This document shows, piece after piece, positions 3,553 through 18,016 of a stretch of 64,000 nucleotides of DNA. Source of the DNA: Ferruginibacter albus (GTDB taxonomy: Bacteria; Bacteroidota; Bacteroidia; Chitinophagales; Chitinophagaceae); NCBI RefSeq assembly GCF_020042285.1, contig NZ_CP083388.1:434001-498000 (forward strand), in the 5' to 3' direction. The number at the start of each line of letters is the position of its first letter. Position 1 is the stretch's first letter. The position numbers and the translations under genes are program-made. Below the pieces are notes generated by a model, which saw nothing but the letters and a program-made list of their open reading frames with translations, was not told the origin of the DNA and made no database searches.

Positions 3553-3604
3553 ATTTCACCGGTCAGGTATATTGCTATTGCACCCTCGTTCTCACAATTA
3601 CAAT

Positions 3605-3612
3605 TATTTTTG
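3605..3612 (+). promoter_or_regulatory. Putative -7 box (TATTTTTG)
   Basis: The sequence fits TAnnTTTG, the Bacteroidota sigma-ABfA -7 consensus, immediately upstream of the GNAT-like start codon. A TTG that could be the -33 element lies at 3578-3580, with 24 bp between, which is slightly long. Confidence 0.45.
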
Positions 3613-3617
3613 CACTC

Positions 3618-4787
3618 ATGCAATTGATTCCTGTAAATGATAAAGTAACTGCAAAAGAATTTTTGCAGGTTGCTGTGGAGCTATACAAGAACGACACCAA
3701 CTGGATACGTCCTTTGGATAAAGACATCAACGAAGTATTTGATACCAAGAAGAACAAAGCATATCGTTTTGGCGAAACTGCCCGCTGGGTATTAAAGGAT
3801 GATAATGGGAGATTGATCGGTCGCATTGCTGCATACGCAAATAAAAAATACCGGAACAAAGGCGATGATGTACCTGTTGGCGGTATTGGTTTTTTTGAAT
3901 GCATCAATAACCAGGATGCCGCTGATCTTTTATTCGACAATGCCAAGCATTGGCTGATCCAACATGGCATGGAAGCAATGGACGGACCTATCAACTTTGG
4001 TGAGCGTGATCGTTGGTGGGGATTGGTTACCAAAGGACATGATGAACCTTTGTATTGCATGAATTATAATCCGCCATATTATGTTGCCTTATTTGAAGAT
4101 TATGGTTTTCAACCTTTTTTTGGACAGGTTTGCTTTGGCATGGATCCCAAAAAGCCTTTTCCAAAAAAGATATATGATCGTCATGCAAAATTTTCTAACG
4201 ATCCCGATTTTTCATCAAAGCATATTGATAAAAGCCAGCTGGAAAAATTTGCACAGGATTTTGTAACCGTTTATAATAAAGCATGGGCAGGGCATGGCGG
4301 CTTAAAACAAATGGCAAAAGAACAGGCTGTTATTTTATTTAAGACCATGAAGCCGGTAATGGATGAAAAAATAATTTGGTATGCATATCATAAAGACGAA
4401 CCTATTGCGATCTTTATAAACTTGCCCGATCTCAATCAATGGTTTAAATATCTGAATGGAAAATTCGATCTGTTGCACAAACTAAAATTTCTCTGGGTGA
4501 AGAAAAACAAGCCCAATAAAAAACTCACCGGTATTGTTTTCGGAGTAGTTCCCGAATGGCAGGGCAAAGGAGTTGACAACTATATTATTGTTGAAGCCTC
4601 TAATAAATATATTATCACCAACCAATCACCTTATAGCGAGTATGAGATGCAATGGATTGGCGATTTTAATCCTAAAATGATAAATGTTGCCGAAAGCCTT
4701 GGAGATGTATTTCGCAATCGCAACCTTACTACGTATCGCTATTTATTTGACAGAATGAAAGAGTTTAAGCGCCATCCAATGGTGTAA
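3618..4787 (+). CDS. GNAT-like N-acetyltransferase family protein (conserved, function unknown)
   Basis: A 389-residue cytosolic protein with no signal peptide. The N-terminal part (LYKNDTNWIRPLDKDINEVFD, then GRLIGRIAAYANKKY) and the middle (GGIGFFECIN, MDGPINFGERDRWWG, MNYNPPYY) match the pattern of a widespread ~380-residue GNAT-like family, usually annotated only as hypothetical or N-acetyltransferase. A second acetyltransferase-like half appears later (FGVVPEWQGKGVDNYIIVEA, where the WQGKGV stretch resembles an acetyl-CoA loop). No substrate is known to me. A TATTTTTG box at 3605-3612 ends six bases before the ATG and fits a Bacteroidota -7 element, which supports this start. No operon partner is evident; the repeat copy A1 follows downstream. 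Confidence 0.75.
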   Translation: MQLIPVNDKVTAKEFLQVAVELYKNDTNWIRPLDKDINEVFDTKKNKAYRFGETARWVLKDDNGRLIGRIAAYANKKYRNKGDDVPVGGIGFFECINNQDAADLLFDNAKHWLIQHGMEAMDGPINFGERDRWWGLVTKGHDEPLYCMNYNPPYYVALFEDYGFQPFFGQVCFGMDPKKPFPKKIYDRHAKFSNDPDFSSKHIDKSQLEKFAQDFVTVYNKAWAGHGGLKQMAKEQAVILFKTMKPVMDEKIIWYAYHKDEPIAIFINLPDLNQWFKYLNGKFDLLHKLKFLWVKKNKPNKKLTGIVFGVVPEWQGKGVDNYIIVEASNKYIITNQSPYSEYEMQWIGDFNPKMINVAESLGDVFRNRNLTTYRYLFDRMKEFKRHPMV

Positions 4788-4837
4788 TATTTCTAATTAG
4801 TGTTTTCTGATTTTATAATTTTCAATAAATGTAATTC

Positions 4838-4976
4838 TCTCTAGATCTAAGAGTAGAATTACCAATGTAGAGTTTACAGTAGTACAAATGCTGAGTATTG
4901 CTGTACCGACAAACGGGCGGTATATCGTTTGTCGGCGGCTTTTTGGGTTACTTTTTTTCCGCAAAAAAAGTAACAG
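4838..4976 (-). repeat. Repeat family A, copy A1 (inverted orientation)
   Basis: This is the reverse complement of the repeat found at 10209-10367 and 14771-14921. It carries a hairpin with 12-bp arms at 4947-4974 (GTTACTTTTTTT, loop CCGC) and a second hairpin with 10-bp arms at 4906-4935 (CCGACAAACG / CGTTTGTCGG), followed by a shared AT-rich tail containing the equivalent of ACTACTGTA. Short frames read through it encode the same LLFLRKKSN-like peptide as copy A3, so they are repeat translations and not genes. It fills the gap between the GNAT-like gene and dnaX. Confidence 0.85.
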
Positions 4977-5027
4977 GAAAAACACTAATAAGAACTCTCA
5001 TTGTTTTTATTAACTTGCAATCATTGT

Positions 5028-6824
5028 ATGGATAAATTCATTGTTTCAGCACGTAAGTATCGTCCGCAAAATTTTTCTACTGTTGTAGGACAAGCGCATA
5101 TTACCACCACTTTAAAGAACGCCATCAAAAATAATCAGCTGGCACACGCCTTTTTGTTTTGCGGTCCACGTGGCGTTGGTAAAACAACCTGTGCAAGAAT
5201 ATTAGCTAAAACGATCAATTGTGAAAACCAGACAAAAGACGGCGAAGCTTGCAACACTTGCAACTCCTGTGTTTCGTTCGATGCAGGCATCTCTTTAAAT
5301 ATACATGAGCTGGATGCGGCAAGCAATAACTCCGTAGATGATATCCGTTCATTGGTAGAACAGGTTCGCTTTGCGCCACAAGCCGGTAAATACAAAGTAT
5401 ATATCGTGGACGAGGTGCACATGTTAAGCGCTTCTGCATTCAATGCCTTTTTAAAAACGTTGGAAGAACCGCCGCCTTATGCCATTTTCATCTTAGCAAC
5501 AACAGAAAAACATAAAATACTTCCAACCATTTTAAGTCGTTGCCAGATATTCGACTTTAAACGTATTACCAACAATGATACGGTTGAGCATCTGCAGGAG
5601 ATCTGTGACAAAGAAGCAGTAACTGCTGAAAAATCTGCATTGCACATCATTGCGCAAAAGAGCGAAGGTTGTATGAGAGATGCGCTCAGCATCATGGATA
5701 AGATCGTAAGCTTTACCGGCGGACAACTCACTTATCAAAACACCTTAGAGCATCTTAATATTTTAGATGAAGATTACTATTTTAAATTATTGGATAGCCT
5801 GCAGCAACAGAATTTAGCAGATGCTATGCTGATGTACGACGAAATAAACCGTAAAGGCTTTGAAGGTGACACCGTATTGGAAGGCTTTGCAGAATTTCTC
5901 CGCAACTTATTGGTAAGTAAAGATGCGAAAGTTGCCATGCTGTTAGAAGTAGCAGAAGACTTTAAACAAAAGTATTTGCAAACAGCACAAAAAATTGCGC
6001 CCTCTTATATCATCAGTGCTTTAAATATTTTAAACGAAGCAGGCATTAATTACAAGCAAGCCCGCAACAAACGGTTGCATGTAGAGCTCACCATCATCAA
6101 GCTTTGCTATTTGCAGCAGGCATTGGAATTGGTAAGCAACGAAGGCGGTGTAAGTAAAAAAAAACTGATTGATTCAACAAAGGCAGTAGCATTTAGAGCG
6201 TTGCCAATAAGAGAGGCAACAAGGCAGGAAGGTAACAAGGCAACAAGTGTTAAGCCTTCTCAAAATGAAGCTAAATTAATTATTGAACAACCAAAGGAAT
6301 CATCAATTCCTGCTCCTAAGTTTGAAACGTCGAAACCCCAAACTGCTGCTACCGAACAACCAGCTACCAGTGCCGGGTTATCTTCTTTAAAAGCCATCCG
6401 CAATAAAGTTGCGCAGCAAAATAAAAGCAACAATACATTAGCCAAACAATTAACCGAAGAAGAGTTGTATGCCTGCTGGGGCATCTTCATTGAAAAATTA
6501 AGAGAAAGAAAAAATCACTCTGCTGTTACCAATTTTAAATTAGCTACGCTGAAAGTAATAGATGAAAATTCCATTAACATCATTACAGAAAGCGAAATAC
6601 ATAAAAGCTTTGTTGAAAATGAACGGGCAGAGCTGATCGTTTACTTACAGGATTACTTCGGCAACCGCTTGCTTACGTATCAAATACAGGTAATAGAAAG
6701 AGAAAAAACAGGCAAAGAAGAACCCCGACCTTTAAATACCAAAGAACAATACCTCCGCATTATTGAAGAATATCCCTTAGTAAAAGAGCTCAAGGATAGA
6801 TTACGATTAGAATTGGATTTTTAA
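5028..6824 (+). CDS. dnaX: DNA polymerase III subunit gamma/tau
   Basis: The clamp-loader ATPase of the replicative polymerase. The ATG at 5028 (MDKFIVSARKYRPQNF) is the conserved DnaX start; an upstream TTG at 5001 is not needed. Visible motifs: Walker A GPRGVGKT at residues 46-53, the zinc-module cysteines at 65, 75, 78 and 81, the Walker B DEVH at 128-131, and the sensor-1/SRC region (ILATTEKHKILPTILSRC) at about 155-172. Domains I-III occupy about the first 370 residues. A low-complexity linker (about 395-460, rich in Thr, Ala, Pro, Gln) leads to a tau-like C-terminal domain that would contact the helicase and polymerase. Length, 598 residues, is normal for the phylum. The linker contains an in-frame stretch of intergenic-type repeat (6214-6247). 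Confidence 0.96.
   Translation: MDKFIVSARKYRPQNFSTVVGQAHITTTLKNAIKNNQLAHAFLFCGPRGVGKTTCARILAKTINCENQTKDGEACNTCNSCVSFDAGISLNIHELDAASNNSVDDIRSLVEQVRFAPQAGKYKVYIVDEVHMLSASAFNAFLKTLEEPPPYAIFILATTEKHKILPTILSRCQIFDFKRITNNDTVEHLQEICDKEAVTAEKSALHIIAQKSEGCMRDALSIMDKIVSFTGGQLTYQNTLEHLNILDEDYYFKLLDSLQQQNLADAMLMYDEINRKGFEGDTVLEGFAEFLRNLLVSKDAKVAMLLEVAEDFKQKYLQTAQKIAPSYIISALNILNEAGINYKQARNKRLHVELTIIKLCYLQQALELVSNEGGVSKKKLIDSTKAVAFRALPIREATRQEGNKATSVKPSQNEAKLIIEQPKESSIPAPKFETSKPQTAATEQPATSAGLSSLKAIRNKVAQQNKSNNTLAKQLTEEELYACWGIFIEKLRERKNHSAVTNFKLATLKVIDENSINIITESEIHKSFVENERAELIVYLQDYFGNRLLTYQIQVIEREKTGKEEPRPLNTKEQYLRIIEEYPLVKELKDRLRLELDF
6214..6247 (+). repeat. GGCAACAA-type short repeat inside the dnaX linker
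   Basis: Three to four imperfect units (AGGCAACA, AGGCAGGA, AGGTAACA, AGGCAACA) lie in frame in the unstructured linker of dnaX and encode about 11 residues (REATRQEGNKA). The same motif, mostly in reverse complement (GTTGCCTT, TTGCTGCCT, CTTGCCTT), recurs just after the gene at 6845-6926. Confidence 0.6.
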
Positions 6825-6844
6825 AAGCAGGCACTAAGCCAACG

Positions 6845-6926
6845 AGGCAACAAGTTTTGCCTTTCCCTGTTGCCTTATTGGCTCTTTAACCTTGCTGCCT
6901 CAATGCCTCCTTAACTCCTTGCCTTC
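6845..6926. repeat. Cluster of GGCAACAA / TTGTTGCC-type units after dnaX
   Basis: The dnaX-pdhC gap (6825-7019) holds one forward unit (AGGCAACAAG at 6845) and several reverse-complement units down to 6926. The facing units can pair into weak hairpins and might end transcription, but no clean T-tract terminator is seen. Confidence 0.5.
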
Positions 6927-7019
6927 TCCCTTCGGAAACGTTACCATTATAACCTTTGGGTTTTCCAACAGATTTGCAGTAATTTCGAACCTCATTTATA
7001 AAAAATATCCCTGAATATT

Positions 7020-8657
7020 ATGGCTGAAGTAATACGAATGCCCCTTATGAGCGATACCATGACAGAAGGTGTGATTTCTGAATGGCATAAAAAAGTTGGC
7101 GACAAGGTAAAACCCGGCGACGTTCTTGCCGATGTAGAAACCGATAAAGCCACCATGGAGCTCGAAAATTATGTAGAGGGCACTTTATTATATATTGGTG
7201 TTGAAAAAGGCAAAGCCGCCAAGGTTGACGGCATCTTAGCTGTTGTAGGTAAAGAAGGCGAAGACTATAAAGGATTATTAGGTGGCGATGCCGCACAGGC
7301 TTCTCCCGCCGCTGCACCTGCAGCCACTCCGGCTCCGGCAGCAGCCCCAACCGCCGCTCCTGCTGCTGCAAAAGTTGCCTTACCCGCCGGCGCAAAAGAA
7401 ATAAGAATGCCGCTGTTAAGCGATACTATGACAGAAGGAAAGATCGTATCGTGGAATAAAAAAGTAGGCGACGCGGTAAAAGCAGACGATGTATTAGCCG
7501 ACGTGGAAACCGATAAAGCTACGATGGAAGTAGTAGGGTACGAAGAAGGCACTTTATTATATGTAGGTGTAGAAGCCGGACAAGCCGCTAAGGTAAACGA
7601 CATCATTGCGATAGTCGGTAAGCCCGGAACTGATGTCAGCGCTTATGTAGCCGCAGAAAAATCAGGAGCCAATAATGCCGCCGCTGCACCTGCAGCCACC
7701 GCAGCTCCCGCCGCACAAACAGCAACACCTGCACCATCCGCACCACAACCCACCGCTGAACCTGCCCCATCTTCTAACGGAAGAATAAAAGCCTCTCCTC
7801 TTGCAAAAAAATTAGCCGCCGATAAAGGAATAGATATTTCTAAAGTTACCGGGAGTGGCGATAATGGGAGAGTTACTAAAAAAGATGTTGATAGCTATAA
7901 GCCTGCAGACGAGAAACGTCAAACGGCAGAAGGTAAACCGGCTGCAGCTGTACAAGCCTTTGCACCGGTTGGACAGGAAGGCTTTACCGATACGCCTGTT
8001 ACGCAAATGCGCAAAACCATTGCCCGCCGCTTAAGCGAAAGCATGTTCACAGCGCCGCATTTCTATCTAACGATGGAAATAAATATGGACAATGCCATTA
8101 CCTCCCGTGCAGCGATAAACGAAGTAAGCCCGGTAAAGGTATCGTTCAACGATATGGTGATCAAAGCCTGCGCTATGGCATTGCGTGTACATCCTGATGT
8201 AAACAGCAGCTGGCTGGGCGATACGGTTCGTCATAACCAGCACATACATATTGGTTCTGCATTAGCATTGCCGGATGGATTGATCGTTCCGGTGATACGT
8301 TTTGCCGACCAGAAATCATTGTCGCAGATCGCTGCCGATGCAAAAGCTTTATATCAAAAAGCAAAAGATAAAAAGATACAGCCTGCTGAATTCAGCGGTG
8401 GCACATTTGCCGTATCTAATTTGGGAATGATGGACATTGAACATTTTACTGCCATCATTAACCCGCCGAACAGCGCTATATTGGCTGTAGGCGCTATTAA
8501 AGAAACCGTAGTGAAAAAAGGCGATGGTTTTGGTGTAAGCAGCTTTATGAAAGTTACCCTTAGCTGCGACCACCGCAGTGTTGATGGCGCCGTTGGTGCA
8601 GCCTTTTTACAAACATTGAAAAAGTATTTGGAAAACCCGGTTACCATGCTGGTATAA
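7020..8657 (+). CDS. pdhC: Pyruvate dehydrogenase complex E2, dihydrolipoamide acetyltransferase
   Basis: The 545-residue core subunit of a 2-oxo acid dehydrogenase complex; it moves the acetyl group to CoA. Two lipoyl domains are visible, with the lipoylated Lys in ETDKATME at residue 43 and again at residue 166. Both are followed by Ala/Pro-rich swinging linkers (about 92-120 and 215-250). A peripheral-subunit-binding domain (ASPLAKKLAADKGIDISKV...) spans about 255-292. The C-terminal catalytic domain ends with the acetyltransferase motif DHRSVDGAVG (His518, Asp522). The two-lipoyl arrangement and the IRMPLMSDTMTEG style point to the pyruvate rather than the 2-oxoglutarate enzyme. E1 and E3 genes are not in the window. 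A strong terminator follows at 8678. Confidence 0.93.
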   Translation: MAEVIRMPLMSDTMTEGVISEWHKKVGDKVKPGDVLADVETDKATMELENYVEGTLLYIGVEKGKAAKVDGILAVVGKEGEDYKGLLGGDAAQASPAAAPAATPAPAAAPTAAPAAAKVALPAGAKEIRMPLLSDTMTEGKIVSWNKKVGDAVKADDVLADVETDKATMEVVGYEEGTLLYVGVEAGQAAKVNDIIAIVGKPGTDVSAYVAAEKSGANNAAAAPAATAAPAAQTATPAPSAPQPTAEPAPSSNGRIKASPLAKKLAADKGIDISKVTGSGDNGRVTKKDVDSYKPADEKRQTAEGKPAAAVQAFAPVGQEGFTDTPVTQMRKTIARRLSESMFTAPHFYLTMEINMDNAITSRAAINEVSPVKVSFNDMVIKACAMALRVHPDVNSSWLGDTVRHNQHIHIGSALALPDGLIVPVIRFADQKSLSQIAADAKALYQKAKDKKIQPAEFSGGTFAVSNLGMMDIEHFTAIINPPNSAILAVGAIKETVVKKGDGFGVSSFMKVTLSCDHRSVDGAVGAAFLQTLKKYLENPVTMLV

Positions 8658-8677
8658 TTTCCACTGCATAGTTATTG

Positions 8678-8708
8678 AAAGCGAAGTTTTAAAAAGCTTC
8701 GCTTTTTT
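8678..8708 (+). terminator. Rho-independent terminator after pdhC
   Basis: Arms AAAGCGAAG and CTTCGCTTT around a 10-nt loop, followed by TTT, 20 bp after the stop codon. Confidence 0.8.
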
Positions 8709-8741
8709 GTTTTTGGGAAGTGGGCATTTGTTCTTTGTGGA

Positions 8742-8765
8742 GCATCGTTGTGTCACTCACTTGTA
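8742..8765 (+). repeat. Dispersed 24-nt motif, copy 1
   Basis: Core TTGTGTCACTCACTTGTA, shared with 18017-18041 (reverse strand) and 62664-62687 with one or two mismatches. It sits between pdhC and the next gene. Function unknown. Confidence 0.6.
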
Positions 8766-8854
8766 GGGAAAAATTCTATTAAGCAATATTATACTCCATA
8801 TTTTTCTTCCTCATCTTATCATATCTTCAATCGTAAAATACAATCCAGACAATC

Positions 8855-9919
8855 ATGAAGCAAGTAGTTTTATTATCAGCTTTATTCTTCTGCTTTACGC
8901 AATCAAAATCACAAACCAATTCTACAAATGAAATAGATAGTTTATTGGAGAAAAAAATAACTATCAATCAATTTTGCTTGTGCAAAACAACTTTAAGCAA
9001 CTTACAGTCATCATATAAAGATTTAAAAGAGACAGCTATAGAGGAAATGGATTTCGGAAAAAGATGTGGGAGTGGCGGAGATTCTCGTTATACAAATGGC
9101 AAAGGTTATTACACAGAACAATATCCCGGCATAATTTTTCAAAAAGACCCAAATGAAGGTTATATAAGTAAATTTAGACTTACTAAACAATTTGTAGGAA
9201 AACTTCCTGATGGTACTCCTATTAATTTGAATAATTTATTACTGAAAGATTTAATTAAGCAGTATCCTGAACCACTTTTTAAATGGTCTTCACGAGGTTG
9301 TTCAGATTATTGGACATATACAAATGATACTATTTCTTTTTTTCTAAAAATCGATGTAAATAAAAAGCCACAATACCCATTAGATGAAGCGTATTATTTA
9401 AATCGCCCTGTAGATGCTATTGACGTGTTTATTTCGTGTTATAGTGTTTTCAATAAAAATAATTCAATACAATTATTTGCTCCTGATGAACCTATGTACT
9501 TCCTGGATGATATACGTACTAACAAAAGTTTTTTAGAAAATTCAGGACTTACGCAAAATGAGATTGCTTTAGTAAGAGTATTTAAAGATTCAAATGCTAT
9601 TAGGCTAGGCGGAAAAGACGCAAAGAATGGCTTAATTTATATTTATACAAAAGAATTTGCAAGAGATGCTTATTGGAATTATTTTAAATTGAAATCGGAA
9701 GACTACAAAAACTCAATCACTTCTTTAGAAATTGAAAAGAAAGTAACATATATATTAAATGATAAAGTTCTTGAAGATAATTATGAAGGAGACCTTTACA
9801 GTATTAATGATGATAATTTTATAGAACTAAAAGTTATTAGTAAAGAGCAATTAAAAAAAGATTATAAGGTTTCAAATAAATCTTTTGGTGTGGTTATTAA
9901 ATCAAAGGATAAAAAATAA
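8855..9919 (+). CDS. Secreted protein with a TonB-plug-like C-terminal motif, function unknown
   Basis: A 354-residue protein with a short signal peptide (MKQVVLLSALFFCFTQSKSQ). The central region has paired cysteines (FCLCK, KRCGSGGD, GCSDYW) that may form disulfides. Around residues 237-270 the string ALVRVFKDSNAIRLG, then KNGLIYIYTKE, resembles the end of a TonB-dependent receptor plug (VLKDxxAxxxYGxxxxNGVIxIxTK), but no beta-barrel follows. I do not recognise the family as a whole. The gene is AT-rich compared with pdhC and sits at the upstream edge of the repeat-rich region. The plug resemblance could be chance or could mark a domain borrowed from a receptor. Confidence 0.65.
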   Translation: MKQVVLLSALFFCFTQSKSQTNSTNEIDSLLEKKITINQFCLCKTTLSNLQSSYKDLKETAIEEMDFGKRCGSGGDSRYTNGKGYYTEQYPGIIFQKDPNEGYISKFRLTKQFVGKLPDGTPINLNNLLLKDLIKQYPEPLFKWSSRGCSDYWTYTNDTISFFLKIDVNKKPQYPLDEAYYLNRPVDAIDVFISCYSVFNKNNSIQLFAPDEPMYFLDDIRTNKSFLENSGLTQNEIALVRVFKDSNAIRLGGKDAKNGLIYIYTKEFARDAYWNYFKLKSEDYKNSITSLEIEKKVTYILNDKVLEDNYEGDLYSINDDNFIELKVISKEQLKKDYKVSNKSFGVVIKSKDKK

Positions 9920-9930
9920 TAATTATTTCC

Positions 9931-10165
9931 TTCGCCTTGGTTCGTGTCCAAGAACCATTCGCCTTGGTTCGTGTCTCACGAACCATTTTAATAAAATACA
10001 TTTTCATTACCTCTTCTTCGCATCTTCACCAGTAACTGCATAAGGCGCCTCTTTTGGTTCGGTATCGCCGAAGGCGGTATTGAAAAAAATGCGCAGCATA
10101 TTTTTTTCAAAGAAGCAAAAGCAGCGCCGTTGAAGTTACGCTGCCCCGCCGGCAGAGGAGGCGAA
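9931..10165 (+). repeat. Repeat family B, copy B1, with a duplicated first hairpin
   Basis: The full copy runs 9958-10165; an extra partial copy of its first ~27 bp precedes it (9931-9957). Hairpins: GGTTCGTG / CACGAACC near 9965-9983; GAAAAAAAT / ATTTTTTTC near 10082-10108; and CTGCC / GGCAG near 10141-10155. In copies B2 and B3 the last hairpin is CAGCC / GGCTG, so both sides changed together. It runs through a short linker into A2, giving a composite of about 435 bp. Confidence 0.85.
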
Positions 10166-10208
10166 AGCTTCAAACTTCAAACATCATCAATAAATTGCAA
10201 TTCTTTTC

Positions 10209-10367
10209 TGTTACTTTTTTTTGCGGAAAAAAAAGTAACCAAAAAAAGCCGCCCGAAAAAGATTACATCCCTTTTTGGGGTTGGTTCCCTGATGTAACTT
10301 TTGTACTACTGTAAACTCAACATCAATAATTCTGCTCTTATAATTTATACAGTATACTATTCTATAT
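10209..10367 (+). repeat. Repeat family A, copy A2
   Basis: Hairpin 1 at 10210-10239 has 13-bp arms (GTTAC plus eight T, loop GCGG, eight A plus GTAAC), one pair longer on each side than in A1 and A3. Hairpin 2 has arms CCCGAAAAAG and CTTTTTGGGG. Compared with A1 and A3, three of its ten pairs are changed on both sides and one is mismatched. The AT-rich tail with ACTACTGTA and TATACAGTATA is shared with A3. Confidence 0.85.
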
Positions 10368-10379
10368 CTTCTTTTAAAT

Positions 10380-10610
10380 ACAAATGCTTCTAATTTCCAC
10401 TTTCACGCAAAAAACTACGTTTTCATCGCACAAATCGTAGAGTTTGATATCAAACCCCACGATTTTATCGCAAAAGTCGTCGACTTTTACTATCACAGTG
10501 GGAATTTGATAGCAAAACTTACCGACTTTGACGATAAAACCACCGACTTTATCGTCAAAGTCCACGACTTGCATGCACAACTCTGCAACTTCATCATAAG
10601 AACCGGCAAC
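10380..10610 (-). repeat. Degenerate 21-bp tandem repeat, about 11 units
   Basis: Read on the minus strand, eleven consecutive 21-bp units end in (A/G)ATNAAA-like triplets and mostly begin GTCG or GTTG; good examples are the units at 10548-10568, 10527-10547 and 10464-10484. A twelfth, weaker unit may extend to 10631. In one minus-strand frame the units encode heptads of the type VxDFxxK, but there is no credible start site and the frame ends with the repeat. The array lies directly after A2 and about 140 bp before the 10752 gene. Confidence 0.75.
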
Positions 10611-10751
10611 TTTACTGTTAAAATGTACATTTCTTAGATAAATGTCAACCTTTTTCGTATCAGCTATCGCAGCGTGTCAGTTGCTTTTACTATCTGTAGT
10701 TTGATCAACTTGATCTTTAGATCCATTCACTAACAATTAAAACTAAATTTC

Positions 10752-11129
10752 ATGGCTACAAAAACAAAAGGCAGGGTAGTGCTTTCTACAAATGCAAGAG
10801 AATCTCTTAAACTGGCTGAAAACGTGTACACCAAACACCAGGCAGATGGTAACGCTTCTATTTTACTTTCTTTAGAAGATGGTTTAGATTGGGCGGTTAC
10901 CGGTCCAAAAATTAACACCTGTCTTGCCAAGCACGAAGAAGCGGAGCAATTGGCTAAGGATGCCGAAAAGGCTTATCGGGATCGAGATGCCATGCTTACT
11001 GAAATTAACGGCATTGTGATAGCAAGTAAAAATCTTTTAAAAGGTAAATACACTAACAATCCCAAAGCGCTTGGTGATTGGGGTTTCGTAGTAGATGATA
11101 CGCCAAAAGCCAAAAAGAACAAAGAATAA
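10752..11129 (+). CDS. Small conserved cytosolic protein of unknown function
   Basis: A 125-residue protein with no signal peptide or membrane segment (MATKTKGRVVLSTNARESLKLAENVYTKH...). It is predicted to be mostly helical; a central region rich in Glu, Ala and Lys (HEEAEQLAKDAEKAYRDRDAML) could form a short coiled coil, and the tail is basic (KAKKNKE). I have the impression of similar ~120-residue proteins in other Bacteroidota but know no function. The start is the ATG after an AT-rich leader (ACTAAATTTC). It stands alone: repeats lie upstream and a terminator follows at 11152, so it is probably a single-gene transcript. Confidence 0.7.
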   Translation: MATKTKGRVVLSTNARESLKLAENVYTKHQADGNASILLSLEDGLDWAVTGPKINTCLAKHEEAEQLAKDAEKAYRDRDAMLTEINGIVIASKNLLKGKYTNNPKALGDWGFVVDDTPKAKKNKE

Positions 11130-11151
11130 GGTTGAGGAATGTTTATAAGGT

Positions 11152-11184
11152 AAAGCCTTCATCGAAAGATGAGGGCTTTTTTTA
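11152..11184 (+). terminator. Terminator after the 10752 gene
   Basis: Arms AAAGCCTTCATC and GATGAGGGCTTT around GAAA, with one G-U pair, followed by a T-run. Confidence 0.85.
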
Positions 11185-11305
11185 TTAATAAAAACTTCAC
11201 ATAATATAATTCAATTTATTTTTAACCCAACCTTTCTTTGAAAAAAGAAATATCTTATAAGGATGTGATAGCACTCTCATTATTATTATACTAAAACAAC
11301 TGATT

Positions 11306-12331
11306 ATGAATTTCAAATGCATCAAAACAATCTCTCCAAAAAACCTTATCGCTGTATTGCTGGCAGCAATTATGTTTACCGGTTGCAGCAAAAATAGTGA
11401 CACCGGCAACCCGCCCGGTTCTGGCGGCACTGTTGAAAGCGGCGTGTATATTGCAGGCACTTCCAATAATGTTGCCACTTATTGGAAAAACGGCACTATC
11501 GACAGTCTTACGCATACAGGCTCTTTTGCACAAGCAAAAGGAATAATTGTTACCAATACAGACATTTATATAGCCGGTGCCGAAGGAGAAATAATTAAGT
11601 ATTGGAAAAACGGAACACCTACCAGGCTTTCTGTCGCCGACCATCAAAGTGGTGATGCAAGATTTGCTTATATATCGGGTAACGATTTTTATGTAGTAGG
11701 ATACGAAGACGGAGGAGGAGCAGATTATGTTGCCAAATACTGGAAAAACGGTGTGGAAACTGTTTTACAAAATGGATTGCAGGCTCGAGCCATACAAGTG
11801 GTAGGTAATGACGTGTATGTAGTTGGCACATCGGTTGATGGTAAACCCGTTTATTGGAAAAACGGCGTACCGGTTTACCTGCCTTTTGTAGATAATTATG
11901 GCAATGCTAATTCAATTTGCGTGGTAGGTAATGATGTATATGTTGTGGGAGACGAGTCTGGTTTAAATCAAACACCGCATTCCATTTATTGGAAAAACGG
12001 AATTGCAACTAACCTTGCAGGAGGAGATGGAGGCTCACCCAAAGCAATATGTGTTGTAAATAATGATGTTTACATTGCCGGCTATACAGGTAGTGCCATT
12101 CCTGCATATTGGAAAAACGGCACTATAAATAACCTGGCAAATCCTAATACGGAACGCGGATATGCTTATTCCATGTGTTTTTCAGGAAATGATATGTATA
12201 TATGTGGTGGCTTTTATCCTGATCAATTAGGAATGAGTAATGAAAGAGCAGCTTACTGGAAAAACGGAGTAAGGACCGATCTTACTGATGGAACAAACAC
12301 TTCTTCTGCATACTCTATCTTTGTAAAATAA
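11306..12331 (+). CDS. Lipoprotein with seven YWKNG repeats, probable beta-propeller
   Basis: A 341-residue lipoprotein: the N-terminus carries a basic start, a hydrophobic stretch and a lipobox (MFTGC), then a Gly/Ser-rich linker. The rest consists of seven repeats of about 45 residues, each with a VY(V/I)(V/A)G strand and a YWKNG turn followed by a strand ending in Leu. Seven regular beta repeats fit a seven-bladed propeller, anchored in the outer or inner membrane. The fold is an inference from repeat number and spacing. The 14-base core TATTGGAAAAACGG is nearly unchanged between repeats, which suggests recent duplication or gene conversion. Ligand unknown. The convergent gene at 12470 shares the perfect terminator at 12357. 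Confidence 0.78.
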   Translation: MNFKCIKTISPKNLIAVLLAAIMFTGCSKNSDTGNPPGSGGTVESGVYIAGTSNNVATYWKNGTIDSLTHTGSFAQAKGIIVTNTDIYIAGAEGEIIKYWKNGTPTRLSVADHQSGDARFAYISGNDFYVVGYEDGGGADYVAKYWKNGVETVLQNGLQARAIQVVGNDVYVVGTSVDGKPVYWKNGVPVYLPFVDNYGNANSICVVGNDVYVVGDESGLNQTPHSIYWKNGIATNLAGGDGGSPKAICVVNNDVYIAGYTGSAIPAYWKNGTINNLANPNTERGYAYSMCFSGNDMYICGGFYPDQLGMSNERAAYWKNGVRTDLTDGTNTSSAYSIFVK

Positions 12332-12352
12332 ATTTTAAATTATTAAAAAATT

Positions 12353-12394
12353 AAAAGGGGGTAAAGCAAGATATCTTGCTTTACCCCCTTTTTT
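12353..12394. terminator. Bidirectional terminator, perfect 32-bp palindrome
   Basis: GGGGGTAAAGCAAG and CTTGCTTTACCCCC flank a self-complementary centre (12357-12388), with A-run before and T-run after. It lies between two convergent genes and should work for both. Confidence 0.9.
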
Positions 12395-12407
12395 ACTGAT
12401 GCTTCCG

Positions 12408-12456
12408 CCGTTGTTGGTCGCCTGAGGTAACTATATACCTGTTAGACCATGTAATT
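12408..12456. repeat. Short repeat C, copy 1
   Basis: The string GTTGTTGGTCGCCT and, about 25 bp later, CCATGTAA resemble 14195-14232 (GTTGTTGATCGCCT ... ACATGTAA). Here the hairpin is AGGTA / TACCT; the other copy has CTGTTGTTG / CAACAACAG. The relation is weak but the order of elements is the same. Confidence 0.4.
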
Positions 12457-12469
12457 CAATTTTTTAATG

Positions 12470-12835
12470 CTATTTGTTTTTAGATTTTACACGATGAACC
12501 ATGGCGGCCATTGCAGGACAATTTGAATAAACTAAGGCAGCAACTTCCTTACTTACACTTTTAAGATCTTCTTCTGTAAGATTAGAGATATCTTTTTTTG
12601 TTTTTTCCTGCGCATATCCTATAAGCATGTCTAAATTATCCGTTACACATTTTGTGAGCATTCGTTCTGCATCATTATTATTATTGACAGAGTTGGTATC
12701 GGTTTTGGAAATGCAATCACAAACTGCATTGATTAACTTTTCTTTAGATTGAGATAATTTTGATGTGTCATTTTGTGCAGAAGCATTCAAAGAAAAGAAT
12801 AAAGTAGTAACAAGTGTAAAGTGTATAAAGGTCAT
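12470..12835 (-). CDS. Small secreted protein with conserved cysteines, function unknown
   Basis: A 121-residue protein with a signal peptide (MTFIHFTLVTTLFFSLNASAQ). The mature part is helical and hydrophilic and holds three cysteines in regular positions (VCDCIS, LTKCVTD) plus one near the end (NCPAMAAM). The pattern of a short secreted helical protein with a CDC motif is common among uncharacterised Bacteroidota proteins; I cannot name the family. It converges on the YWKNG lipoprotein. Just upstream of its start (12858-12880) is a hairpin AAGGCTGC / GCAGCCTT in the presumed leader or promoter region. Confidence 0.68.
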   Translation of the reverse strand: MTFIHFTLVTTLFFSLNASAQNDTSKLSQSKEKLINAVCDCISKTDTNSVNNNNDAERMLTKCVTDNLDMLIGYAQEKTKKDISNLTEEDLKSVSKEVAALVYSNCPAMAAMVHRVKSKNK

Positions 12836-13251
12836 AGATTATAATTTATACAAACCTACTAAAAGGCTGCTAATGCAGCCTTAAAGAAAGTCTCTTTGCC
12901 TTGATTCGTGTCCCACGAACCATTTTAATAAAATATTTCATTACTTCATCCTCCCTTTTTCACCAGTAACTGCATAAGGTGCCTCTTTTGTTTCGGTGCC
13001 ACCACAGGCGGTATTGAAAAAAATGCGCAGCATATTTTTTTCAAAGAAGCAGAAGCAGCGCCGTTGCAGTTACGCAGCCCCGCGGCTGTGGAGGCGAAGG
13101 CTTTTATTGTTGTTTGCAATTCGAATTAAGAGAACTTACATCAAAAAAACCATCCTGTTTAATAGATCAAAAGCACTTGCAGCAAAGCAATTGAAATCTC
13201 ATTCGTTGCTATAAAAATTCATTTTAAAGAATTAGATTTAAGAAAAAAAAC
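12836..13251. other. 416-bp gene-free stretch
   Basis: It holds a hairpin at 12858-12880, repeat B2 (12895-13098) and about 150 bp of AT-rich sequence before the C1q-like gene. The forward frame at 12996-13214 starts inside B2 and is not accepted as a gene. Confidence 0.75.
12895..13098 (+). repeat. Repeat family B, copy B2
   Basis: A 204-bp copy that differs from B3 at only four positions by hand alignment, all transitions. Its first hairpin carries a G-to-A change (GATTCGTG) that breaks one pair. No A repeat or linker adjoins it, so this is a B unit alone. Confidence 0.9.
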
Positions 13252-14091
13252 ATGAAACTGCTTTTTACATTTATCCCCGGTTTCCTTTTTATTTTAACAG
13301 CGCAAGCACAAAACGTTGGTATTGGAACTGCAGCACCTATCAATAAATTTACTGTCAGGGTAAATGGGTTAGGTATTACGCAGGAAAGTGCCGATAGCAC
13401 TACACGAGTGGGTTTTTATGTTGCTTCGCATAATGCGTATGTGCAAACCCATACAAAAGACAATCTTAATTTTGCTACCAATAACGGCTTAGCAGCCATA
13501 ACGCTGGATACGCTTAATAATGTAGGTATTGGCACTACTACTCCTGCAGCAAAACTGGATGTAGAAGGTACCGTAAAGTTGAAAATAGGCACACCTGATT
13601 ATGGAGATGTATTAACCAGCGATGAATTTGGAAATGCTACCTGGCAAGCGCTACCCGCCTATTTCAAGGGATTTAAAGCTTATGCAAACTCTAATCAATC
13701 TATCTTTAGCGGAAGCGCTTATTATACTATTAGCTTCCCTACCTACGATTATAATGATGGGCTTTATTTTAATACCACCACATCTAGTTATGTAGCGCCC
13801 GTTGCCGGTGTTTATCATTTTGATGTTACCTTGGTATGGTCGGTAACTGCTAACGCTACTGCTTATCCTATTATTACTATTATTGGTGCAGGTTCCTTTG
13901 CCACTGCTGTTGGCAGATCGCAAACCATTGTTCCTGCCGGCTTTTCGGGCACATTAACTACACAGGTATCTATGGATGAAAAATTAACTACAGGAGAAGC
14001 CATTATTGTGCAAGCTTCACAATCATCTTCCAGTACGCAAACGGTTACAGGAACATACCTTACCAGCTTTAACGGGCATAGAGTTTATTGA
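13252..14091 (+). CDS. Secreted C1q/TNF-like domain protein
   Basis: A 279-residue protein with a signal peptide (MKLLFTFIPGFLFILTAQAQ). Two copies of the NVGIGTxxP motif (near residues 21 and 95) are the stalk repeats typical of Bacteroidota surface proteins that resemble phage tail fibres. The C-terminal ~140 residues (from about FKGFKAYAN) fit a C1q-like jelly roll: FNTTTSSYVAPVAGVYHFDVTL matches the usual YxAPxxGxYxF motif. Such proteins form trimers that bind ligands at the cell surface; the ligand here is unknown. There is no T9SS tail. The gene is flanked on both sides by B-type repeats (B2 upstream, B' downstream). Confidence 0.8.
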   Translation: MKLLFTFIPGFLFILTAQAQNVGIGTAAPINKFTVRVNGLGITQESADSTTRVGFYVASHNAYVQTHTKDNLNFATNNGLAAITLDTLNNVGIGTTTPAAKLDVEGTVKLKIGTPDYGDVLTSDEFGNATWQALPAYFKGFKAYANSNQSIFSGSAYYTISFPTYDYNDGLYFNTTTSSYVAPVAGVYHFDVTLVWSVTANATAYPIITIIGAGSFATAVGRSQTIVPAGFSGTLTTQVSMDEKLTTGEAIIVQASQSSSSTQTVTGTYLTSFNGHRVY

Positions 14092-14118
14092 TCCTATTTT
14101 TATTTTAAAAGAGGATTC

Positions 14119-14190
14119 GACAAAAATGCGCAGCCCCACCGGCTGTGAGGCGAAAGCTTCAAAGTTTGTACAGCATCAATAAGATCATTT
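14119..14190 (+). repeat. Repeat family B, internally deleted remnant B' with linker
   Basis: The sequence AAAAATGCGCAGCCCC joins the middle of B directly to its end. In full copies these parts are separated by about 50 bp lying between two CGCAG direct repeats, so this is what a deletion between them would leave. The closing hairpin (CAGCC / GGCTG) is kept, and then comes linker sequence (GTACAGCATCAATAAGAT) also found at 14735-14752. Confidence 0.75.
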
Positions 14191-14194
14191 TCGG

Positions 14195-14232
14195 CTGTTG
14201 TTGATCGCCTCACCAACAACAGTAAACATGTA
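14195..14232. repeat. Short repeat C, copy 2, with 9-bp hairpin
   Basis: CTGTTGTTG (14195-14203) and CAACAACAG (14213-14221) can pair perfectly. The segment resembles 12408-12456. It lies just before the NTF2-like gene at 14259. Confidence 0.5.
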
Positions 14233-14258
14233 ACTTCGGCTTTCTAAAATTTATCTCT

Positions 14259-14603
14259 TTGCAATACCAACAACTCCTCCAAAAAGCCTACGCATCTTTC
14301 AATGCCCGTGATATTGATACCGTATTATCCTTACTGCAACCCAATGTACATTGGTCAAACGGTTGGGAGGGCGGTTATGTAACCGGTCATGATGAACTGA
14401 GAGAGTACTGGACAAGGCAATGGAAAGAGGTCGATCCCATTGTAGAGCCTATTAACATTACACAACTCCCCGATGGTCGCGTAGAAGTAGAAGTACAGCA
14501 AACAGTAAAAGATCTGCAAGGCACTATTGTTTTCGATGGAATTGTAAAGCATATCTATACTTTCAACAATGGTTTGATACAACAAATGGATATTGAAAAA
14601 TAA
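14259..14603 (+). CDS. NTF2/SnoaL-like protein
   Basis: A 114-residue protein of the NTF2-like superfamily: helix LLQKAYASFNARDIDTVLSLLQPNVHW, then GYVTGHDELREYWTRQW, then strands ending in the typical VKHIYTFNNGLIQQMDI. Members of the SnoaL-like group act as small enzymes or binding proteins; the function here is unknown. The only in-frame start at the right length is TTG at 14259, because no ATG occurs before the last few residues, so the start is uncertain. There is no signal peptide. The gene lies between the B' remnant and the linker-A3-B3 cluster, i.e. inside the repeat cluster. Confidence 0.72.
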   Translation: MQYQQLLQKAYASFNARDIDTVLSLLQPNVHWSNGWEGGYVTGHDELREYWTRQWKEVDPIVEPINITQLPDGRVEVEVQQTVKDLQGTIVFDGIVKHIYTFNNGLIQQMDIEK

Positions 14604-14770
14604 TAGAAGCGTTTAAATTCTATCAATAATTAATCATCGCCGCTTTTTGCCACGTTTCGCCAGGCTCAACATGACAAAAAGCTACCACTCCAACATTTCG
14701 AAAAGTTGTCAGTCTGAGCTTTAAAGCTTTGTACAGCATCAATAAGATTATTTTACCCGCAATTTTCTTA

Positions 14771-14921
14771 TGTTACTTTTTTTGCGGAAAAAAAGTAACC
14801 AAAAAAGCCGCCGACAAACGATATACGGCCCGTTTGTCGGTACAGCTATATTCAGCTTTTGCACTACTGTAGCTTCAACATTAATAATTCTATTCTTAGT
14901 TTTATACAGTATAATATTCAT
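14771..14921 (+). repeat. Repeat family A, copy A3
   Basis: Hairpin 1 at 14772-14799 (12-bp arms GTTACTTTTTTT, loop GCGG); hairpin 2 at 14811-14840 (CCGACAAACG / CGTTTGTCGG, ten perfect pairs). The tail ACTACTGTA ... TATACAGTATA is shared with A2. B3 follows without a gap, the opposite order to the B1-linker-A2 composite. Confidence 0.9.
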
Positions 14922-15124
14922 TTGCCTTGGTTCGTGTCCCACGAACCATTTTAATAAAATATTTCATTACTTCATCCTCCCTTTTTCACCAGTAACTGCA
15001 TAAGGCGCCTCTTTTGTTTCGGTGCCGCCGCAGGCGGTATTGAAAAAAATGCGCAGCATATTTTTTTCAAAGAAGCAGAAGCAGCGCCGTTGCAGTTACG
15101 CAGCCCCGCGGCTGTGGAGGCGAA
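14921..15124 (+). repeat. Repeat family B, copy B3
   Basis: A 204-bp copy, 200 of 204 positions like B2. Hairpins: GGTTCGTG / CACGAACC, CCGCC / GGCGG, GAAAAAAAT / ATTTTTTTC and CAGCC / GGCTG are all intact. Confidence 0.9.
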
Positions 15125-15314
15125 TGCTTTGAATTAAATGCATTTTAATTTTAGAAAACAAGTTTTATGAAAATCCGTCTTTGACAAACTCAGACTGAAT
15201 TTCTAATACTTCAAAAAATAAAGATCTTACCCAACCCTTTTTCTTTCTTACACAGTTATATAAAATGTAGAAGAAATTATTCATTCAGAATTATTTCATC
15301 CTGCATTATTATAT

Positions 15315-15992
15315 ATGAAAGCAAAAAAATTATTCTTTAGCATTCTTGCATTGGTAACTGTTAATATCGCTATTGCGCAAGACATCGTTATCACATCACC
15401 CGATATTAAATTTCCGGAAGAGGTTACCATTACCGGCTTAGTAAAAAATGAAGCAGGCACTCCGCTTGCAAATGCTACTGTAAAAACTGTATTTGGAGAT
15501 GCTTATTTTACAGATGGTAACGGGCAATTTTCTTTCTCCTTAAAAAAAGAAAAAGTAATACCCCAAAGCATCTTTATAAGCTACGATAGTTTGGTAACGG
15601 AAGTAAGAAGTTATCATCCGGTAATGGCAAACACCGATTATATGATTACACTTTATAAACCCGTGCAATGCTGTTGCCCTCAGCACCATTGTGATGAAAT
15701 AAAGCACGCATCGTTAAAAATGTATTTTGAAGAGAACAGCATTGTGTTATCGGAACAAACCAAAAAGCAGCTGGATAGTATTTCAGGCATGGCAAAAGAA
15801 TGTCCTTCAACGATCATACGGCTTACCGTATATGCAGATTATAAGAAAACGCTTCAACGATTGGCAGATGAAAGACTCGATGCGCTTAAAAAATACCTGA
15901 TCGAACAGGATGGTATCTCTATCGATAGAATTAACCCCGGCAAAACAACCACTACTTCCAATGCCAATAGCGTTGATATCAAGTTGGAGTAA
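15315..15992 (+). CDS. Secreted protein with carboxypeptidase-regulatory-like and OmpA-like domains
   Basis: A 225-residue protein with a signal peptide (MKAKKLFFSILALVTVNIAIAQ). Residues about 37-110 form a CarboxypepD_reg-like beta sandwich (ITGLVKNEAGTPLANATVKTVFGDAYFTDGNGQFSFSL), a domain common in Bacteroidota surface proteins. A Cys-rich bridge (VQCCCPQHHCDE) follows. The C-terminal ~90 residues (MYFEENSIVLSEQTKKQLDSIS ... RLADERLDALKKYLIEQDGI) resemble an OmpA-like peptidoglycan-associated domain. It may therefore tie a periplasmic assembly to the cell wall; no lipobox or barrel is present. The metal-binding look of the CCCPQHHC bridge is notable but unproven. The gene lies just downstream of B3. 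Confidence 0.75.
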   Translation: MKAKKLFFSILALVTVNIAIAQDIVITSPDIKFPEEVTITGLVKNEAGTPLANATVKTVFGDAYFTDGNGQFSFSLKKEKVIPQSIFISYDSLVTEVRSYHPVMANTDYMITLYKPVQCCCPQHHCDEIKHASLKMYFEENSIVLSEQTKKQLDSISGMAKECPSTIIRLTVYADYKKTLQRLADERLDALKKYLIEQDGISIDRINPGKTTTTSNANSVDIKLE

Positions 15993-16099
15993 AGGCGTCA
16001 AAATGCATGCATTATTATGGCTTATCCTCTCTCAAAAAACCATTAGCAATTACTGTTTTATTAGGTTATCTTGTAGGTCAACCATAAAAACTTACAAAC

Positions 16100-16588
16100 A
16101 TGAAAAAGTTAATTGTGATCTTCAGTCTGTTCCTTCTTTTAGGAGCAAATGCCTTTTCACAGGAAATGAAAGAAAATGGAATCATCTACATCACACATCC
16201 CTATATCGACATGGTAAATAATTCTATGAACGCTTATGTAAAACAGGACAATGCGGCTTTCGGTAAAATTTATTCAGACACTGCAAAATTCTGGGCATCG
16301 GGTATGGATAAACCTATTGGCATTGCAGATGCCATAAAAATGTGGAGCACAGATTTTAAGTTTTACGACAGCATTAAAGTATTGACCGTAGGTTATCCTG
16401 ATTATTTACATTATAAAGACCACGATTCCAAGATCGTTCAATCCTGGTGGACATGGGTAGGTAAATCAAAACGAACAGGAGCTACCGTAAAAGTTGATTT
16501 TGTACAATTCGACGGTTTTAACAGCGCAGGTAAAATAGATTTTGAAGGCATGTACGGCGATTTTTCAAAAATGGAAAAAGAAAAATAA
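16100..16588 (+). CDS. Secreted NTF2-like protein
   Basis: A 162-residue protein with a signal peptide (MKKLIVIFSLFLLLGANAFSQ). The mature part follows the NTF2/SnoaL pattern: a helix (MVNNSMNAYVKQDNAAFGKIYSD), the hydrophobic face TAKFWASGMDKPIG, and late strands (SKIVQSWWTWVGKSKRTG, KVDFVQFDGFNSAGKIDFEGMYGDF). Relatives carry a DUF4440 or SnoaL label without a known reaction. It is close to the OmpA-like gene on the same strand (107 bp gap) and has its own terminator at 16611. Confidence 0.75.
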   Translation: MKKLIVIFSLFLLLGANAFSQEMKENGIIYITHPYIDMVNNSMNAYVKQDNAAFGKIYSDTAKFWASGMDKPIGIADAIKMWSTDFKFYDSIKVLTVGYPDYLHYKDHDSKIVQSWWTWVGKSKRTGATVKVDFVQFDGFNSAGKIDFEGMYGDFSKMEKEK

Positions 16589-16610
16589 GCAACCAAAATA
16601 ATATTCATTT

Positions 16611-16638
16611 CAAAGCGGCTTTATGCCGCTTTGTTTTT
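16611..16638 (+). terminator. Terminator after the secreted NTF2-like gene
   Basis: Arms CAAAGCGGC and GCCGCTTTG, loop TTTAT, then a T-rich stretch. Confidence 0.85.
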
Positions 16639-16718
16639 ATGTAGCTTAAAATATAAAGTTCATTCAAAGCAACATTTGGTCAGTATAAATCTTAAATTGG
16701 TATTTCAACTAACAGACC

Positions 16719-17933
16719 ATGCCAAAACCAACCTATACTAAACCATTTTATTTTCTTTTTTTAGTATTACCTACAGGTATCAGCAGCGGTTTTGTGACCG
16801 TTACCTTGCCATACCTGCTCACACACCGTGGTTTTTCTGTTACTGCAGCAACAATAATTGCAGCGGCAGGTGTATCGGCAAATATTTGGCGATTTGTTTG
16901 GGGTCCGCTTGCCGATCTTACGCTTACTCTTCGTAAATGGTATGGTATAGCAGTATTGGCTACCATTATTACGTTGCTGGCGCTTTGCTTTATTCATTTT
17001 AATCCAAAAGATACTATACTGTTAACTGTTTTGGTTTTTGTATCACAGGTGGCGGGAACATTTGTGATGCTGCCTGTTGGAGGTTTTATGGCCAATCGTA
17101 TTGAAGCGCATCATAAAGGAAGAGCTTCGGGATGGTTCCAGGCAGGCAATGTAGGAGGAACCGGATTGGGGGGTGGCGTGGGATTATGGCTCGCTAGTCA
17201 TTATAACATAACGATTGCTGCTATTGGGCTATGTGTGATGTGTATTTTATCAGGTTTGGTTGTATTGCTGATACAGGATGTAGCAAGTGATAAAGAGAAA
17301 AGCTTTGAAGGGGAATTAGGCTTAATGGGGAAGGATTTGCTAGAAATGATAAAAATACCAATAGTGTTATTTGTTATTATATTGATCTTATTACCGATCG
17401 GTTCCGGGGCAGCGAATAACGTTTGGTCGGCTATTGCAGATGATTGGAAAGCCAGTGCAGATAGGGTCGCCCTGGTTACAGGTATAGTAGGTGGAATTGT
17501 TGGTGGTGTCGGCAGTATTGCCGGAGGTTTCATTGCTGATCGTTTTGGCAACTGGGTAGCTTACTTGGGAATAGGTGTGTTGTGTGCGCTGGTTACAGTG
17601 ATAATGGCTTTATTGCCTTACCATCCTGATGTGTACACCGGTGGTGTATTGGCATATAATTTTACTACAGGCATGGCGTATGCTGCATTTTCTTCTATGC
17701 TGTTATATGCCATTGGTAAAAAGAATGCTTCTACTAAATATTCACTGCTTTCATCATTTGGTAATTTGCCGGTAATGTATATGACAGCTTTTGATGGATG
17801 GATACATGATAAGCATAGCAGCAAATATATGCTGGTTGCCGAAGCTGTTGTTGGTATCCTATTCGTATTGATCTCTGCCGTTGTTCTAAAAAGAATGATG
17901 ATGAAAAAGTTAGTGCCGGAAATAGTAGAATAA
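16719..17933 (+). CDS. Major facilitator superfamily permease
   Basis: A 404-residue integral membrane protein with about 12 predicted helices in two halves. The loop between helices 2 and 3 reads RFVWGPLADLTLTLRKW, a variant of the MFS motif A, and the equivalent loop of the second half is GGFIADRFGNW. The overall style (GISSGFVTVTLPYLLTHRGFSV at the start) resembles AmpG-like muropeptide or sugar permeases, so uptake of a peptide, sugar or cell-wall fragment is possible but unproven. It stands alone between a terminator and the isocitrate dehydrogenase gene. No regulator adjoins it. Confidence 0.85.
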   Translation: MPKPTYTKPFYFLFLVLPTGISSGFVTVTLPYLLTHRGFSVTAATIIAAAGVSANIWRFVWGPLADLTLTLRKWYGIAVLATIITLLALCFIHFNPKDTILLTVLVFVSQVAGTFVMLPVGGFMANRIEAHHKGRASGWFQAGNVGGTGLGGGVGLWLASHYNITIAAIGLCVMCILSGLVVLLIQDVASDKEKSFEGELGLMGKDLLEMIKIPIVLFVIILILLPIGSGAANNVWSAIADDWKASADRVALVTGIVGGIVGGVGSIAGGFIADRFGNWVAYLGIGVLCALVTVIMALLPYHPDVYTGGVLAYNFTTGMAYAAFSSMLLYAIGKKNASTKYSLLSSFGNLPVMYMTAFDGWIHDKHSSKYMLVAEAVVGILFVLISAVVLKRMMMKKLVPEIVE

Positions 17934-18016
17934 ACTTCATATCTTAATATAGTTCCTTTCTCTTCAAGCTTCCGCAAACGATTTCGGGAAAAAATTACTC
18001 AATTATTGTTGAAAAA

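Follow-up and report, generated by a model that had tools for sequence, protein, structure and literature searches.

The window analyzed here, a 64,000-nt stretch of the genome of Ferruginibacter albus (one contig, 3.76 Mb), contains three copies (A1, A2, and A3) of a folded repeat that we refer to as family A. The two hairpins that the initial annotation described as shared by these copies are present in the sequence (Table 1). The T-run and A-run of hairpin 1 do lengthen together, being seven bases each in A1 and A3 and eight each in A2, and the hairpin 2 stem of A2 differs from that of A1 and A3 by changes on both sides at pairs 3, 5, and 9, with a G-G mismatch at pair 4. A perfect CCCGAAAAAG stem was found among the copies from the genus. 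The 5' arm of A2 is thus no local one-off, and A2 is a member of another stem subfamily.

Table 1. Positions of the family A copies and their parts in the window
Feature	Position	Strand	Description
Copy A1	4838..4976 (about)	-	R1 match 4862-4975, 75.4 bits
A1 neighbors	3618-4787; 5001-6824		Stop of ORF 3618-4787 on one side, dnaX (ORF 5001-6824) on the other
A1 hairpin 1	4947..4974	-	T7/A7; loop GCGG (element plus strand)
A1 hairpin 2	4906..4935	-	CCGACAAACG/CGTTTGTCGG; terminator-like on window plus strand (stem, CGGC, T5)
Copy A2	10209..10367	+	R1 match 10208-10326, 108.6 bits
A2 hairpin 1	10210..10239	+	GTTAC-T8 / A8-GTAAC; loop GCGG at 10223-10226
A2 linker	10240..10252	+	C-A7, then GCCGC
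A2 third helix (pseudoknot)	10249-10252	+	CCGC, complement of hairpin 1 loop GCGG; last base overlaps hairpin 2
A2 hairpin 2	10252..10280	+	CCCGAAAAAG / CTTTTTGGGG; loop ATTACATCC; single G-G mismatch at pair 4
A2 conserved tail	10281..10345	+	GTTCCCTGAT...CTTTTGTACTACTGTAAACTC...; outside the modeled helices; based on invariant columns of a 16-copy alignment
Copy A3	14771..14921	+	R1 match 14771-14884, 81.9 bits
A3 hairpin 1	14772..14799	+	T7/A7; loop GCGG 14784-14787, complement of CCGC 14808-14811
A3 hairpin 2	14811..14840	+	CCGACAAACG/CGTTTGTCGG; 10-nt loop; terminator-like on minus strand

Other repeats lie close to these copies. A second family of about 210 nt (9961-10170, 12895-13104, and 14921-15130; 71 to 98% identity to a reference copy) adjoins A2 and A3, and similar sequence occurs beside other copies in the genome. 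A short GTCAGTCTGAGCTTGTCGAAGACGG-like repeat often follows the copy tail in the window genome (flanks of loci L006, L007, L002, and L028). Downstream of A2, an 18-pair palindrome (GACTTTGACGATAAA...; 10524-10562) sits amid repeated TTTATCGTCAAAGTC-like motifs, and the ORF at 11306-12331, for which no Pfam match was obtained, carries repeated TATTGGAAAAACGG units (YWKNG-like).

The repeat is intergenic, multicopy, and patchily distributed across a single family of bacteria from soil and water. A covariance model (R1) derived from an alignment of 16 copies gave 16 matches in the window genome (E <= 0.001), and BLAST gave 15, two of which were short minus-strand matches to the palindrome of hairpin 1, at positions that other matches had accounted for. 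Copies were present in 14 of 39 genomes in the initial DNA search, the window genome included. With R1, matches were obtained in 44 of 93 Ferruginibacter genomes, again including its own (E <= 0.001), in 72 of 294 genomes of Chitinophagaceae, the family to which NCBI assigns Ferruginibacter, representing 34 of 101 genera (E 1e-5), and in 2 of 395 genomes sampled from the phylum, namely, the window's own and one other of the same family. A 21-nt pattern derived from the tail matched 67 stretches in named genomes, the hosts being Ferruginibacter, Foetidibacter, Segetibacter, Agriterribacter, Terrimonas, and Bacteroidota metagenome-assembled genomes, plus one Clostridium stretch for which the R1 score was negligible (20.2 bits, E 0.047). 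Three viral contigs with the tail pattern gave unconvincing full R1 matches (16.8 to 24.1 bits).

The core of the element measures about 115 nt (two hairpins and the loop-linker helix) and comprises, in order, hairpin 1, a C-A6 linker, a short stretch complementary to the loop of hairpin 1, then hairpin 2 and the tail. Hairpin 1 consists of about 10 to 13 A/T-rich pairs with the T-run and A-run, closed by a loop mostly of 4 to 10 nt. Hairpin 2 has 10 pairs and a conserved 9-nt loop (ATTACATCC, ATTACAGCC, GATACGCCG, ATGACGGCC). The tail 3' of hairpin 2 (GTACTACTGT), which the initial annotation had missed, is conserved and unpaired. Several copies in G018 have a 14-nt insertion in the linker, and some other copies contain additional small palindromes within loops. 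Like a miniature inverted-repeat transposable element (MITE), the element is short (214 to 307 nt in 16 copies) and contains no protein gene; over 84 nt, one frame on the minus strand was open in 43 of 55 copies, and one on the plus strand in 36 of 55. A minus-strand coding sequence in the tail was rejected, given the presence of stops and a shift of frame between subtypes. Integron attC sites carry the boxes RYYYAAC and GTTRRRY; these boxes were absent, by reading, from the arms of the window copies, and an attC identity was also rejected.

From the paired changes among the three window copies, selected base pairing had been claimed, and larger alignments support maintained pairing more strongly than that comparison did. 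Among 123 distinct copies, 98.3% of 2,370 cells were paired, versus 78.6% in shuffles, and both sides had changed at 16 of 20 pairs, versus 11.3. Double changes were found in 394 cells, compared with 95.3 in shuffles (0 of 500 shuffles as high) and at most 68 in controls with slid partners. The 16 copies from which the model was built belong to the same family and are mostly inside this set. In a second set of 70 distinct copies (5 of its 72 rows from the same-genus genome G085 and the remainder from other genera), both-side changes were seen at all 20 pairs, and 97.8% of cells were paired; both alignments were fitted to the structure, and their sequences are related. When hairpin 2 was placed by its loop and stems with fewer than 7 of the 10 pairs were excluded, a position could be assigned in 116 of 145 copies (29 were skipped), and 28 of 55 distinct stems were perfect.

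A third helix, overlooked in the initial annotation, is formed between the hairpin 1 loop and the linker and also covaries. Its pairing is absent from the model and therefore provides an independent check. Counting unique loop-linker combinations after removal of long or cut loops and short linkers, the mean longest complement was 3.66, compared with 2.91 in shuffles (62 combinations; 0 of 2,000 shuffles), and 3.69 compared with 2.89 in the second set (36 combinations; 0 of 2,000). Examples of loop and linker partners are GCGG/CCGC, CTCC/GGAG, TCGCC/GGCGA, TGTCC/GGACA, CTTGAT/ATCAAG, TTGAA/TTCAA, and TTGAC/GTCAA. Replication template switching at hairpins, which copies one arm onto the other, could maintain pairing through mutation with no function needed. 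Covariation in hairpin 2 is of the Watson-Crick type, wobbles of both kinds being scarce, and this, together with its 28 perfect stems among 55, would fit such a process, but the hairpin 2 loop and the tail are conserved in sequence, and the loop-linker helix covaries though it is not a simple hairpin. We consider this explanation improbable.

Signs of mobility were found in relatives and at the A1 site. In at least four relatives (G021, G013, G084, and G039), the core is embedded in a longer element bounded by inverted terminal repeats. The ends seen in G021 have similar counterparts in G013 and G084 and, weakly, in G008 and G022. The inverted ends in G039 are of a different sequence, and the flanking duplications there are imperfect (by reading). 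For 16 two-ended copies, all from relatives (10 from G021, 3 from G084, 2 from G013, and 1 from G022), the mean score for target-site duplications was 4.36, compared with 0.35 in shuffles (0 of 5,000); duplications were clear (score >= 4.8) in 9 of the 16 copies, and the score was below 3 in 6. The clearest duplications are 8 bp long (TAACTTTA, TATATCCA, and TAAAAGTA). A search for ends that presupposed no particular sequence picked out 12 of 140 copies at a score reached by 1.6 in shuffles; for the 13 tested copies of the window genome, it detected no ends above chance. The copies in the window resemble older insertions or copies consisting of the core alone.

At the A1 site, the gap between the two genes is 244 nt in the window, A1 included. 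Loci with dnaX were inspected in 30 of the 93 genomes that had a match to this gene, and 27 genomes other than the window's keep the gene pair with a gap of about 48 to 175 nt and no R1 match. The A1 site, occupied in the window and empty in these relatives, shows an insertion polymorphism. A copy at dnaX in G039 (L276) was rejected as the A1 insertion, being of another subtype and located beside a remnant, and lacking the same upstream gene. In G013, a copy lies upstream of dnaX in the opposite orientation. Copies can also be arrayed in tandem: in G178 (L347, 1809-2855), four cores recur with a spacing of about 250 nt from one to the next and are followed by an inverted copy.

The genes around the copies were compared for 145 copies, 29 of which had no called neighbor, using ORF-based gene calls and many short flanks. 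The remaining 116 copies showed four arrangements: co-directional genes with the element read on its minus strand (45 copies) or on its plus strand (26 copies), divergent genes (25 copies), and convergent genes (20 copies). The orientation bias (45 versus 26, p = 0.03) is weak and varies by genome. It had been 18 versus 4 in the first 43 copies, and a cis-regulatory element of fixed orientation, a candidate at that count, was demoted to a rival with 145 copies. Seven neighbor clusters recurred in at least 3 genomes; by reading, these were either frames that overlap the element itself or widespread families, among them a response regulator.

In this rival explanation, the fold would work in RNA as a mobile terminator, attenuator, or transcript stabilizer between co-directional genes. 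The minus strand would present the tail, hairpin 2, a U-tract, and an H-type pseudoknot, in which a U-rich loop could line the A-U stem. The placement of copies is consistent with this proposal in that, within 300 bp, gene starts lie on the side of hairpin 1 in 65 cases versus 39, and gene stops lie on the side of the tail in 55 versus 28. Additionally, hairpin 2 of A1 and A3 scores as terminator-like on the minus strand, although the U-tract stands four bases off the stem in both copies. The orientation bias that the proposal would explain fell as copies were added, is reversed in G039, G083, G046, and G021 (small numbers), and is accompanied by no neighbor gene in common. Nor does the repeat have an Rfam family: no gathering match was obtained for window positions 1 to 20000, and E-value scans of window positions 10150 to 10420 and of three loci (L171, L014, and L005) yielded no hit above threshold within the element and one tRNA elsewhere in L014. 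The statement in the initial annotation that no named family matches is supported by these scans.

A helix selected in RNA is expected to favor G-U pairs on the transcribed strand. The 55 loop-anchored hairpin 2 stems (550 cells) contained 515 Watson-Crick pairs, 9 G-T, 11 A-C (2 of them contributed by one visibly misplaced stem), and 15 other combinations; the same count on the second set, with 40 of 72 rows skipped, gave 203 Watson-Crick pairs, 5 G-T, and 4 A-C in 220 cells. In this loop-anchored count, on which we rely most, hairpin 2 shows no G-U preference on either strand, which favors a DNA fold and speaks against the RNA explanation. Wobble counts made in other ways were mixed. The fitted alignment, in which fitting favors G-T, contained 25 G-T versus 16 A-C in 2,370 cells; a strand-symmetric scan, in which wrong registers were permitted, contained 19 G-T versus 38 A-C in 2,504 cells, the excess corresponding to G-U on the minus strand and hence agreeing with an RNA fold; and an early count on 68 of the first 69 copies was 8 versus 14. 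The RNA control for wobble frequency consisted of 7 tRNAs, too few for a sound comparison. The end pair of the loop-linker helix also leans toward the minus strand. Counted for 8-nt loops ending in C, with combinations distinct within each alignment, the base opposite the C was A in 30 combinations, G in 25, and T in a single one (56 in total), so that 55 of the 56 would be G-C or G-U on that strand. Judging from these base-pair counts, mixed as the wobble counts are, a fold in DNA is favored over a fold in RNA, and we regard the RNA explanation as rather unlikely.

Searches for a mobilizing enzyme covered the surroundings of the copies, terminal-repeat matches, and Y1_Tnp genes. No recurrent transposase gene was found near the copies, for many of which the flanking sequence spanned no more than about 500 bp. 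Four genomes were searched for terminal repeats and 15 loci were inspected, and no autonomous partner was identified; no transposase was found among the 30 ORFs scanned, of 44 of at least 150 codons, at terminal-repeat loci, and 5 of these 30 had no Pfam family match. Y1_Tnp matches were found in 21 of 24 genomes of the genus (59 matches), two of them about 0.4 to 1 kb from copies. A 33-nt inverted palindrome lies on both sides of the sole Y1_Tnp (RAYT-like) gene detected in the window genome (L027, 1189-1221 and 1797-1829); it differs from the repeat and is probably the REP of that gene. Sequence similar to this palindrome occurs near window positions 12406 and 14192.

The Y1_Tnp genes bear on whether family A could be of the REP/RAYT type, with a Y1 protein acting on the core. 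Its palindromic, intergenic, and multicopy character and the two nearby Y1_Tnp matches would suit such a relationship, and the excess of tail-to-tail over head-to-head inverted doublets (7 versus 1 at loci not chosen for inverted pairs; 18 versus 3 over all loci, some of which were picked for known inverted pairs and one of which was counted twice) recalls REPINs. However, 30 of the 59 Y1_Tnp loci, a set that excludes the two near copies, contained no R1 copy at E <= 0.01 and a single weak match (E 0.076), and the window genome's own Y1_Tnp gene has the other palindrome. Target-site duplications are not expected of REP/RAYT elements, yet they occur in the relatives. The hairpin foot in the listed copies is, by reading, GTTAC or other bases instead of GT[AG]G, a feature also lacking in REP subclass 2.6 as described in one report (PMC6006769), which leaves room for a REP/RAYT assignment. 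On the whole, we hold that assignment to be highly improbable.

The analysis shows family A to be a mobile repeat, multicopy and spread across the bacterial family, whose three helices covary. The initial annotation had proposed a structured RNA or DNA element; the structure and its maintained pairing stand. That wording did not decide the main question, and here a mobile DNA repeat is the reading to which the evidence points. This evidence consists of the target-site duplications, the A1 polymorphism, the four gene arrangements, the lack of an explanatory neighbor gene, and the lack of a G-U preference in hairpin 2. We judge it on balance probable that the sequences of family A form the folded core of a nonautonomous MITE-like mobile repeat and that their fold acts in DNA. 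The fold would form when the DNA is single stranded at replication or, alternatively, as a cruciform, and may be the target that a trans-acting transposase or nuclease recognizes or processes. The loop, tail, and pairing would be kept for recognition by this enzyme, while the letters of the stems and the terminal repeats could drift between subfamilies. Several observations count against this explanation. The orientation bias is unexpected for a neutral DNA element, and the minus-strand lean of the loop-linker end pair and the mixed wobble counts weigh against a fold in DNA. The two Y1_Tnp matches near copies, the failure of the searches to find an autonomous partner or ends for the window copies, and the duplication scores below 3 in 6 of 16 copies weigh against a MITE-like nature, and DDE-type MITEs are not known to need an internal fold.

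It is possible, if somewhat doubtful, that the identity of the element resides in the folded DNA core of about 115 nt and not in its ends, with the core kept across at least 34 genera and the terminal repeats replaced. If so, the core would be a portable, structure-recognized DNA module for a putative single-strand-acting enzyme. Covariation of such strength is normally read as the mark of a functional RNA. Its occurrence in a mobile repeat for which the cleanest count is strand neutral offers a test case for telling, through comparative genomics, whether a fold belongs to DNA or to RNA, and the family-wide copies, with their natural compensatory changes, are a resource for finding the mobilizing enzyme.

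No published description of the repeat was found in the literature searched, most subscription papers being outside the search. The initial annotation had named, as grounds against a new element, any match to a described repeat or to the end of a known transposon; none was obtained in the searches made, though the element is transposon-like. It appears to be a small passenger mobile element of a kind absent from the databases and literature searched.

As characterized in a review (PMC10969869), prokaryotic MITEs resemble the repeat in being short (here, 214 to 307 nt), intergenic, and gene free, in having other small repeats inserted, and in carrying inverted ends and short target duplications, which for family A are found in relatives; a MITE exemplified there has direct repeats of 7 to 9 bp, terminal inverted repeats of 23 to 29 bp, and a core of 113 to 145 bp. 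Unlike MITEs, family A has no parent insertion sequence that we could find, and its window copies are without detectable ends; its internal fold, with three covarying helices, is conserved across genera, whereas its terminal repeats differ by genome. With REP/REPIN elements (TnpA_REP, RAYT) it shares folded intergenic palindromes and, in some genomes, tail-to-tail doublets. It differs from them in its core of about 115 nt with two hairpins and a loop-linker helix, in the target-site duplications of relatives, in copies that do not flank the 30 tested Y1_Tnp genes, and in the absence of a GT[AG]G foot. The BOX, RUP, and SPRITE repeats of Streptococcus pneumoniae, treated in the same review (PMC10969869), are also small and mobile, in some cases terminator-like, and clustered with other repeats; however, they belong to another phylum, and the conserved feature of family A is a covarying fold. 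Although a proven member of neither group, the repeat is best filed with small mobile repeats of the MITE and REP kind.
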